Source: Paracoccaceae bacterium (lineage in GTDB: Bacteria; Pseudomonadota; Alphaproteobacteria; Rhodobacterales; Rhodobacteraceae). From it: a stretch of 64,000 nt of DNA. The notes beneath the pieces are model-generated. The model did not search any database. It had not been told where the DNA came from and saw only the letters and a program-made list of their open reading frames with translations. Location of the stretch: contig JASBTX010000009.1 of assembly GCA_030148225.1 (NCBI GenBank), positions 186,001 to 250,000 of the forward strand, in the 5' to 3' direction. The position numbers and the translations under genes are program-made. Of this stretch, positions 47,087 to 50,490 are shown piece after piece; position 1 is the stretch's first letter; each line of letters begins with the position of its first letter.

Positions 47087-49177
47087 ATGGCGGGTCGGCC
47101 CGATATCCTGTTCCCGCTTTTCGCAGAGCTCGTCTCGCTCGCGGGGGTGGGCCCCAAGACGGCGGGGCATTTCCGCGCGCTGAATGTTGAGCGCCCGCGC
47201 GATCTGCTCTTTACCCTGCCTTATGCCATCGTCGACCGGCGCCTTGGTGACAGCGTGCAGGGCAAAGAAAGTGGTAGCATCGTCACGGTGGCCGTGACGG
47301 TCGAACGACACATCGCCGCCCCGTCGCGGGGCAGGCCACATCGCGTCATCGTCAGCGACAAATCCACGACCTTTCCGCTGGTATTCTTTCATGCCAATGC
47401 CGAATATCTTCAGCGTCAGCTTCCCGTTGGTCAGCGCCGGATCATCTCGGGCAAGCTCGAGATCTTTGACGGTGTCGCCCAGATCGTGCACCCGGATCAT
47501 ATCCTGCGTGAGGCAGAGCAGGATGAATTGCCCGCGTTCGAGCCGGTCTATCCGCTGACGGCGGGGATCACGCAGAAAATCATGGCGAAATCCGTCGCCG
47601 CCAGTCTGGAGCGGCTGCCTGATTTGCCGGAATGGATCGACCCGGCGCTGTGCCGGCAACGCGACTGGCCCGGTTGGGCGATAGCGGTCAGGCGGGCGCA
47701 TCACCCGGAAGGAGCCGGTGATATCTCGCCCGAGGATCCCGCGCGTCAGCGCATCGCCTATGATGAGTTATTCGCCCATCAGCTGACCCTTTCGCTCGCG
47801 CGTCAGAGGCATCGGACACGGCCGGGCCGATCCTCTGTCGCGAGTGGCCGGTTCCAGTCTCGGGTTCTGGCCGCGCTGCCCTATACGCCCACGCAGGCAC
47901 AGGAACGCGCGATCCGTGAAATTTCAGACGACATGGCCGCCGAGAGCCGCATGAACCGGTTGTTGCAGGGTGATGTCGGTGCGGGCAAGACGCTGGTGGC
48001 GTTGATGGCGCTGCTGGTCGCGGTCGAGGCTGGGGGGCAGGGGGTCATGATGGCACCCACAGAGATATTGGCGCGCCAGCATCTCGAGGGGCTGCGCCCG
48101 CTGGCCGAGGCGGCAGGGGTCGTCCTCGACATTCTGACCGGGCGCGACAAGGGTGCCGAGCGACGCGCCAAGCTGGCGGCACTGGCGGCGGGTGACATCC
48201 AAATTCTGGTCGGCACGCATGCGGTGTTTCAAAAGGATGTGGAGTTTGCCGATCTGCGCCTGGCCGTGATCGATGAACAACACCGTTTTGGTGTGCGTCA
48301 GCGGCTGGAACTGGGCGCCAAGGGGCAGAAGGTTGACATTCTGGTCATGACGGCGACACCCATCCCGCGCAGCCTGTCACTGGCGCAATATGGCGATATG
48401 GACATTTCCGTCCTTGACGAAAAACCGCCGGGGCGGACGGCGATCAAGACGGCGCTGATCCCGACCGACAGGATGGACGAGGTGACGGATCATCTGCGCC
48501 AGGCCATCGCCGACGGGAAACAGGCCTATTGGGTGTGCCCGCTGGTTGATGAGAGCGAACTAAGCGACCTGACCGCGGCTGAAGAAAGGTTCAAGCGGCT
48601 GCGCGCCACGTTGGGTGAAGGTCAGGTCGGCCTCGTTCACGGCCAGTTGCCGCCACGGGAAAAAGATGCCGCGATGCGGGATTTCGCATCAGGCAAAACA
48701 TCTGTTCTGGTGGCCACGACGGTGATCGAGGTTGGTGTCGATGTGCCCAACGCAACGATCATGGTTATCGAGCGGGCAGAAAATTTTGGGCTGGCCCAGC
48801 TGCACCAGCTTCGCGGTCGTGTGGGCCGCGGGGCTGCGGCGTCGACCTGCCTGTTGCTCTATCATGCGCCGTTGACGGAATCGGCTGAAAGGCGGCTGCG
48901 GATATTGCGCGAGAGTGAGGACGGCTTTCGCATTGCCGAAGAGGATCTGGCCATCCGGGGCGCGGGCGACATGATTGGTACGGCGCAATCGGGATTGCCG
49001 GTGTTCCGCGTAGCCGATCTTGAGCGTCAGGCCGGTCTCATGGAACTGGCCCGCAATGATTCCCGCAGCCTGCTGGCGCAGGACCCGACGCTGTCATCCG
49101 AACGTGGGCGCGCCGCGCGCGTCCTGCTCTGGCTGATGGAACAGGACAAGGCGATTCAATTGATTTCAGTTGGTTAG
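47087..49177 (+). CDS. recG: ATP-dependent DNA helicase RecG
   Basis: RLLQGDVGAGKTLVALMA, VIDEQHRFGVRQR, VMTATPIPRSL, QLHQLRGRVGRG; internal ATG at 47087. Confidence 0.95.
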   Translation: MAGRPDILFPLFAELVSLAGVGPKTAGHFRALNVERPRDLLFTLPYAIVDRRLGDSVQGKESGSIVTVAVTVERHIAAPSRGRPHRVIVSDKSTTFPLVFFHANAEYLQRQLPVGQRRIISGKLEIFDGVAQIVHPDHILREAEQDELPAFEPVYPLTAGITQKIMAKSVAASLERLPDLPEWIDPALCRQRDWPGWAIAVRRAHHPEGAGDISPEDPARQRIAYDELFAHQLTLSLARQRHRTRPGRSSVASGRFQSRVLAALPYTPTQAQERAIREISDDMAAESRMNRLLQGDVGAGKTLVALMALLVAVEAGGQGVMMAPTEILARQHLEGLRPLAEAAGVVLDILTGRDKGAERRAKLAALAAGDIQILVGTHAVFQKDVEFADLRLAVIDEQHRFGVRQRLELGAKGQKVDILVMTATPIPRSLSLAQYGDMDISVLDEKPPGRTAIKTALIPTDRMDEVTDHLRQAIADGKQAYWVCPLVDESELSDLTAAEERFKRLRATLGEGQVGLVHGQLPPREKDAAMRDFASGKTSVLVATTVIEVGVDVPNATIMVIERAENFGLAQLHQLRGRVGRGAAASTCLLLYHAPLTESAERRLRILRESEDGFRIAEEDLAIRGAGDMIGTAQSGLPVFRVADLERQAGLMELARNDSRSLLAQDPTLSSERGRAARVLLWLMEQDKAIQLISVG

Positions 49178-49205
49178 CGTTGATATTTTCAGTTTGTTCA
49201 CAAAT

Positions 49206-49220
49206 GTTCCTAAAAAGTTC
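49206..49220. promoter_or_regulatory. LexA-type SOS box (GTTC-N7-GTTC)
   Basis: GTTCCTAAAAAGTTC matches the alphaproteobacterial LexA consensus exactly; 65 bp upstream of a small ORF. Confidence 0.65.
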
Positions 49221-49285
49221 TTTACAATTCGGGTGTGATATGAGAACAAATTAGCAACAAAAGCAATCAAATACAGGTTTCCATC

Positions 49286-49408
49286 ATGATTACCCAGATC
49301 AAAACGGTGTTTCGTCGGTCCCCGCTGGATTTCCTTGAGGATTTGCTTGGCGTGTCATCGCTGTTTTTTCTGTTGATGGTCGGCCTGTCCCTGCCTGGCT
49401 TGTACTGA
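49286..49408 (+). CDS. 40-aa putative single-TM microprotein, not in the ORF track
   Basis: ATG-TGA frame: MITQIKTVFRRSPLDFLEDLLGVSSLFFLLMVGLSLPGLY*. Amphipathic basic N-terminus, hydrophobic C-terminal segment, SOS box upstream, terminator downstream. Confidence 0.65.
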   Translation: MITQIKTVFRRSPLDFLEDLLGVSSLFFLLMVGLSLPGLY

Positions 49409-49536
49409 CCTCTGCCTGCGGCACTCGTCCGGTCAGAACATGTCGTCTGTCCCCAAATTTGTCGGCATGATTTCGTCCCACTGACCCGCGCCCCGCCTCA
49501 ATACGGCGCGTCACCCGGAAAAGAGAACCGCACCTT

Positions 49537-49574
49537 GCCGCCGCCTTGCCACCTGCAAGTGCGGCGGCTTTTTT
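49537..49574 (+). terminator. Strong Rho-independent terminator
   Basis: GCCGCCGCCTTGC-cacct-GCAAG(T)GCGGCGGC followed by TTTTTT; abuts the convergent xerD stop. Confidence 0.85.
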
Positions 49575-50490
49575 ATGACTTGGCCAGCGGATGGTGTTCC
49601 AGCACCAGTTCGCGCAGCCGTTCATCCAGCACATGGGTATAAATTTCGGTGGTCGAAACGTCGGCATGACCAAGCAACACCTGTATCGACCTGAGATCAG
49701 CACCATTCGCCAAAAGATGGGTCGCAAAGGCATGCCTGAGCGTGTGCGGACTGACACGCGCCGGATCAAGGCCCGCTGCCAGCGCCAGCTCTTTGACAAT
49801 CAGGTAAAACCTGTGCCGCGTGAGGTGGCCGGATTTGCCCTGTGACGGAAAGAGAAACGGAGACTTTGATTTTCCGGCCTCATGTCGACGACTCTCTGCC
49901 GTGTCGCGCTGCACGAGCCAATCTGCCATCGCCTGCCGAGCAGGAGGTGAGAGAGGGACCATGCGTTCCTTGCCGCCCTTGCCCCGCACCAGCAGCATGC
50001 GCGGATCGCCCCGCGCTGCCGCAACCGGTAGCTCCACAAGTTCGGAAACACGCATTCCCGTGGCATAAAGCAACTGCATGAGACATTGGTTGCGCAGGCG
50101 GTCACGATCCCGACCCGAGGTCTCGGTCGCTTTTAAAAGCGCGTCAACCTCATCCACGCTCAGCGTCTGTGGCAGGCGGTGGTTGCGGCCTGGCCCCTTG
50201 ATCTGCTGGGCCGGATTGTCCTTGCGCCAGCCTTCTTCATAGGCAAATCGATAGAATTGGCGTATCGCCGACAAAAGTCGCGCCCGGGTCGACGCGGCCA
50301 GCCCGTCGGATTCGCAGGCGATCAGATAGTCTTCGATATCGCTCTGCGCCGCCTTCTCGTCCGAAAGCCCGCGATCCCCGAGCCATTCCGCGAAATCCGT
50401 CAGGTCACGCGCATAGGCCAGCAGCGTATTCTGCGCAGCGTTCAGTTCTGCCGCCTGTGCATCCAGAAAGGCCGAGATACGCCGCTTCAC
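49573..50490 (-). CDS. xerD: Tyrosine recombinase XerD-like
   Basis: SAM-like N-terminus; catalytic motifs LLYATGMRVSELV, HTLRHAFATHLLANGADLRSIQVLLGHADVSTTEIYTHV. Confidence 0.9.
   Translation of the reverse strand: MKRRISAFLDAQAAELNAAQNTLLAYARDLTDFAEWLGDRGLSDEKAAQSDIEDYLIACESDGLAASTRARLLSAIRQFYRFAYEEGWRKDNPAQQIKGPGRNHRLPQTLSVDEVDALLKATETSGRDRDRLRNQCLMQLLYATGMRVSELVELPVAAARGDPRMLLVRGKGGKERMVPLSPPARQAMADWLVQRDTAESRRHEAGKSKSPFLFPSQGKSGHLTRHRFYLIVKELALAAGLDPARVSPHTLRHAFATHLLANGADLRSIQVLLGHADVSTTEIYTHVLDERLRELVLEHHPLAKS

Follow-up and report, generated by a model that had tools for sequence, protein, structure and literature searches.

What is encoded between recG and xerD in this alphaproteobacterial genome, and does it belong to the response to DNA damage? 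In the window, i.e. the whole stretch of 64,000 nucleotides that was analysed, recG ends at 49177 and the convergent xerD begins (with its stop, on the plus-strand scale) at 49573, leaving a gap of 395 bp. The original prediction placed a compact one-gene unit for an SOS-regulated membrane microprotein here, and its parts were found as described. A perfect GTTC-N7-GTTC box at 49206-49220 was read directly from the sequence as GTTCCTAAAAAGTTC, and a 40-aa ATG-TGA frame on the plus strand at 49286-49408 gave exactly the translation quoted (MITQIKTVFRRSPLDFLEDLLGVSSLFFLLMVGLSLPGLY). Sequence and fold revealed an intrinsic terminator on the same strand (49537..49574), consisting of a 13-pair stem (49537-49568) and a T6 tract (49569-49574). 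Box, frame and terminator therefore stand, but a third half-site, a second operator and a structured 3' RNA had been overlooked, and the latter two make the locus more than a one-gene unit. Our best reading, held with moderate confidence, is a monocistronic, LexA-repressed transcript with two outputs, an inner-membrane effector and a 3' regulatory RNA.

A search with the 40-aa sequence against 60 relatives detected homologues in 18 genera of the same family, and a profile built from 18 sequences (A1) recovered the frame in 258 of 298 Rhodobacteraceae genomes (one genome per genus), almost always as a single copy. The number 258 is a lower bound, because three of four inspected genomes that have the extended box without a profile match encode a divergent small hydrophobic frame in its place (L287, L288, L289). 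The tail of recG lay upstream in 36 of 38 distinct loci found by protein alone; plasmid copies of the gene were looked for and none was found. In 22 close pairs, differences were concentrated at the third codon position (312, versus 152 and 76 at the other two) and pN/pS was about 0.26; judged from these substitution patterns, selection on the 40-aa frame is purifying. Together with its conservation, this rules out a chance ORF. M1, D19 and G22 were invariant among 58 members, and L26, L34, L36 and P37 nearly so. At the curated cut-offs of Pfam and NCBIfam the window protein had no match, and the 58 homologues produced no more than stray weak single-member matches.

The box count alone does not exceed chance, since the window contains three perfect boxes where 2.1 are expected; a chance box was nevertheless rejected on the grounds of conservation. 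Operators were counted in the 38 distinct loci that had been picked by protein homology alone. A perfect GTTC-N7-GTTC was present at most 140 nt upstream of the start in all 38, TTTAC was fixed beside the box in 36 and GAAC-N7-[C/G]AAC was found in 35, so the joint conservation of frame and box at recG, which the original prediction had made its first check, was borne out. In the window the first operator, O1 (49196..49220, plus strand), has the form GTTC-N6-GTTC-N7-GTTC and includes a third in-phase half-site, GTTC at 49196-49199; the upstream half-site recurs in 32 of 37 and in 94 of 117 loci. Directly 3' of the box lies TTTACA (49221..49226, plus strand), a conserved putative -35 element; its promoter role is assigned by inference, as no consensus sigma-70 site was called at the locus. 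The second, imperfect operator, O2 (GAACAAATTAGCAAC, GAAC-N7-CAAC; 49244..49258, plus strand), was recognised by conservation and sits near the expected -10 and start region; a perfect GAAC-N7-GAAC occupies this position in 8 of 117 loci. The promoter consensus reads GTTC-N6-GTTC-N7-GTTC-TTTACA-N14-TGAGAACAAA, with CAAC seven bases after GAAC. Across 121 family genomes the pattern GTTCN7GTTCTTTAC occurred in 86, nearly always once per genome, and the reversed control pattern was rare.

In Caulobacter, experiments support GTTCN7GTTC as the LexA box, and about 97% of the SOS promoters there carry a single one (PMC12700426), which makes two conserved operators unusual. In family genomes the lexA promoter has GAAC-N7-GAAC after TTGACAC, and the recA promoter contains GAACAAGAGGCGAAC, closely resembling O2. 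The genome of the window itself has boxes of this kind in front of recA (GAACN7GAAC), lexA, dinB, pdeM and an imuB-like gene. LexA control of the gene is thus well supported by comparative evidence, LexA binding being deduced from these operators, and the proposal of an SOS-controlled, real 40-aa membrane microprotein gains strong support. A regulator other than LexA could be invoked on the grounds that the block GTTCTYAAAAAGTTCTTTAC-N15-TGAGAACAA, usually present once per genome, is conserved beyond what LexA needs, but we regard this as very unlikely given the kinship of O2 with the recA operator and the occurrence of this kind of box at recA, lexA, imuB-like, dinB and pdeM in the same genome. 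LexA would not need so long a conserved promoter block (TYAAAAA spacer plus TTTAC), and the block is largely unique to the recG locus, so another factor may bind in addition to LexA.

Several further observations concern SOS promoters in these genomes. In the window's genome (G000; L291, L292, L294, L296), perfect GTTC-N7-GTTC boxes stand before pdeM, the imuB-like gene, a PA0069-family radical SAM gene and dinB, and, as far as boxes can tell, these genes are a readable SOS regulon. The imuB-like gene, encoding a Y-family (IMS-domain) polymerase, has two overlapping boxes upstream. At the lexA promoter (L224 and the family lexA loci) the second half-site overlaps the expected -10 element (TAGAAC), and a double box occurs in several genera.

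What kind of protein does the frame encode? In the window protein, as in the median of the family, the most hydrophobic 19-residue segment starts at residue 20. The C-terminal half is uncharged, since all 93 homologues of 40 aa lack charged residues beyond residue 19. AlphaFold2 modelled helices at residues 2-11 and 13-35 with a mean pLDDT of 82.6. The product is accordingly predicted to be a small inner-membrane protein with one membrane span, most likely a specific inner-membrane effector. SidA of Caulobacter crescentus, a 29-aa SOS inner-membrane division inhibitor that acts on FtsW (PMC4211646), is comparable in being a very small alphaproteobacterial inner-membrane protein under a LexA-type GTTCN7GTTC box (PMC4211646, PMC12700426). 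It differs in its length of 29 aa, as against 40 aa here, and the structured 3' RNA and the location at recG are features of the present gene. The SidA- or TisB-like character originally suggested is supported only as functional analogy. The family profile, searched through 240 genomes sampled across the class, matched the window's genome and two further genomes of Rhodobacteraceae; outside the family the one match was weak and partial, covering 18 residues (E 0.002), and no credible homologue emerged there. We take SidA as the nearest functional analogue rather than as a demonstrated homologue. By that analogy only, the favoured role of the peptide would be a brake on cell division exerted through a membrane divisome protein, much as SidA of Caulobacter blocks division through FtsW/FtsN; it is favoured because the gene belongs to the core set, is single-copy at one locus and encodes conserved polar residues.

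The peptide might instead be a toxin that, like TisB or DinQ, induces dormancy by depolarising or perforating the inner membrane. Its small size, hydrophobicity, single predicted span and apparently tight repression by two operators would fit, and the E. coli SOS type I systems TisB/IstR-1 and DinQ/AgrB likewise produce a single small hydrophobic peptide under SOS control (PMC3567139, PMC8145889). We nevertheless consider a toxin unlikely. A nearly universal gene, single-copy at one locus in Rhodobacteraceae and with D19 and G22 unchanging, points to a specific partner, and the C-terminal half lacks charge throughout the 93 homologues; single-copy presence across a whole family and this uncharged half also distinguish it from TisB and DinQ. 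A weak search of the locus identified no antisense RNA that could serve as antitoxin, a scan that was not tuned to alphaproteobacteria called no promoter-like site on either strand, and the conserved RNA here is the 3' end of the same transcript. This RNA does not mask the ribosome site of its own message, as the accessibility of the site was 0.34 with the RNA and 0.36 without it. The effector could also modulate another membrane system after damage, e.g. a sensor kinase of the CtrA phosphorelay or a respiratory or transport complex. Small membrane peptides are frequent tuners of larger membrane proteins. The LexA and CtrA networks are linked in Rhodobacteraceae (PMC6473078), but any such partner is hypothetical and we rate this alternative as rather doubtful, keeping the SidA-like brake as the preferred role.

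Downstream of the stop codon, the 3' untranslated region (49409-49568) is a conserved, folded RNA. Between stop and terminator it repeats C-rich motifs, with CTGCCTG in 105 and CTGTCCC in 91 of 138 relatives, compared with approximately 5-8 after shuffling and 2-3 when the reverse complement was counted. On folding, a long helix P1 closes about three hairpins and CUGCCU/UGUCCC are placed in loops. When the strands of P1 were swapped between species, the pairing energy was -11.9 kcal/mol compared with -17.4 kcal/mol for own strands, and own strands paired better in 88 of 97 cases (control, 36 of 97). Run against 100 sources, a covariance model built from 45 sequences found 62 matches with E no higher than 0.1, almost all of which lay outside the building set; L117 was common to building and test sets, although in a different register (a mis-registered row in alignment A2), and the sets were otherwise separate. 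Compensatory double changes were observed at all 20 modelled pairs in 59 matched sequences, so the pairs are kept by compensatory change. The covariation score was 0.504, whereas shuffled controls gave 0.174 and slid controls reached 0.109 at most; the alignment behind it was fitted to the model and leans towards the model's structure, a bias that does not touch the P1 swap test.

The window copy itself is a weak match to the model (49409-49536, 24.3 bits, E 0.0075 in the window), and it folds into the same architecture with a z-score of -4.06. A pre-filtered search of its own genome missed it and listed two places at chance level. In the window the structured RNA spans 49409..49532 on the plus strand, according to covariance model, fold and covariation, and comprises an unpaired CUGCCU, P1 and about three enclosed hairpins. 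The P1 strands pair 49417-49421 with 49528-49532, 49424-49426 with 49523-49525, and 49428-49432 with 49515-49519. Hairpin H2 (49436..49474), seen in the fold of the window copy and covarying in relatives (helix 4; swap test), exposes CUGUCCCC in its loop, and hairpin H4 (49487..49510), seen in the same fold and in the loop-motif survey of 118 relatives, exposes CCGCCUC; both lie on the plus strand. The adjoining terminator has no T tract on the side of xerD, which abuts it (49537-49600), so that read-through from xerD may produce RNA antisense to the 3' RNA. At gathering score, Rfam had no match to the RNA in the window or in ten relatives; a match to Atu_C7 in the window was at chance level, with 13.4 bits where the gathering score is 45, and was dismissed. 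Searching 61 genomes with the covariance model gave no further RNA copies at E up to 0.001; matches occurred in seven genomes, one in each, and those within collected loci were the recG locus. Covariation identifies the 3' RNA as a conserved structured RNA, and it is one without a match in Rfam.

Each RNA contained a median of four YUGYCY motifs, which were unpaired in 72% compared with 45% for all C. The loops of inner hairpins carried a C-rich motif in 71% (118 relatives), against 27% of random windows, and 90% of the pairing was internal, i.e. the RNA is self-contained. Could such an RNA be what the locus mainly makes, acting by itself as a regulator or decoy while the frame matters little? 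The covariation of every modelled pair and the exposed motifs are in favour, but the frame is under purifying selection, and frame and box persist where the RNA has been lost (L175) or reduced (Paracoccus-type loci), which leaves this interpretation improbable. Both Planktomarina loci (L175, L090) retain the box together with a peptide of 47 aa that is extended at its N-terminus; L175 has no 3' RNA, and in L090 it appears to have been lost. The Paracoccus-type loci (L079, L133, L178, L192) have a shorter 3' RNA and a peptide shortened to 31-36 aa, which in three of the four begins with CUGCCCCGCG. Planktomarina without the RNA and the reduced Paracoccus-type loci indicate that the two outputs are separable, and since peptide and box are kept where the RNA is lost or reduced, the peptide seems to be the more indispensable of the two.

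Structured 3' ends are frequent stabilisers of mRNAs, and the 3' structure could serve in cis alone, protecting the message it belongs to or aiding its processing. In line with this, complements of the loop motif were not enriched at 1210 ORF starts, where AGGAG and GGAGG are; loops acting as generic anti-Shine-Dalgarno seeds were therefore rejected, and the RNA does not behave like a generic anti-Shine-Dalgarno RNA. Simple stability, however, needs no repeated conserved loop sequences, and other sRNAs derived from 3' UTRs exist in the lineage (PMC8625941, PMC9779115), so that we consider a pure cis element possible but not the leading explanation. UdsC and Pos19 of the same family are related in kind, as a small-ORF mRNA with a 3' UTR-derived sRNA or a small coding RNA (PMC9779115, PMC8625941, PMC5036791). 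UdsC of Rhodobacter, derived from RSP_7527, is 67 nt long with an RpoHII-dependent promoter (PMC9779115, PMC8625941, PMC5036791), in contrast to the LexA-type operators and multibranched RNA of about 160 nt found here, and was ruled out as the same RNA. The 3' RNA shares one design feature with decoys of another kind. In decoy RNAs of the CsrB/RsmZ type, a short motif recurs in several hairpin loops of one RNA, as it does in the present RNA, whose motif is YUGYCY instead of GGA and which is attached to a coding mRNA.

Under the favoured dual-output reading, DNA damage would make LexA leave the two operators flanking the promoter, and an RNA of about 320 nt would be transcribed; we infer the release step because the operators are conserved and the same box occurs at known SOS genes. 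Translation would yield the 40-aa peptide, whose coding conservation is evident and whose topology, an N-terminal helix and one membrane span, is predicted. By analogy with SidA, the peptide may bind a membrane divisome protein and brake cell division. Meanwhile the 3' UTR would fold on itself into the multibranched structure indicated by covariation, exposing about four CUGCCU/UGUCCC motifs, and would probably persist as a 3' UTR-derived regulatory RNA or act as a decoy. We tentatively suggest that the transcript may represent a new class of SOS-induced dual-function RNA, in which a membrane microprotein brake is combined with a CsrB-like decoy or multi-seed RNA bearing repeated CUGYCY loops.

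The open-licence literature yielded no report on the recG-adjacent locus and no described SOS division checkpoint in Rhodobacteraceae, and we know of none. The Rhodobacteraceae are abundant in the sea and serve as model phototrophs. The gene, unnamed and nearly universal among them yet outside Pfam and NCBIfam, is probably an overlooked core part of their DNA damage response and, as a candidate for the damage effector that the family lacks so far, can be tested directly. Its RNA, outside Rfam, is a new RNA family, and the repeated loops suggest a partner. If the transcript is indeed a dual-function RNA, it would connect post-transcriptional control with DNA damage throughout the Rhodobacteraceae.
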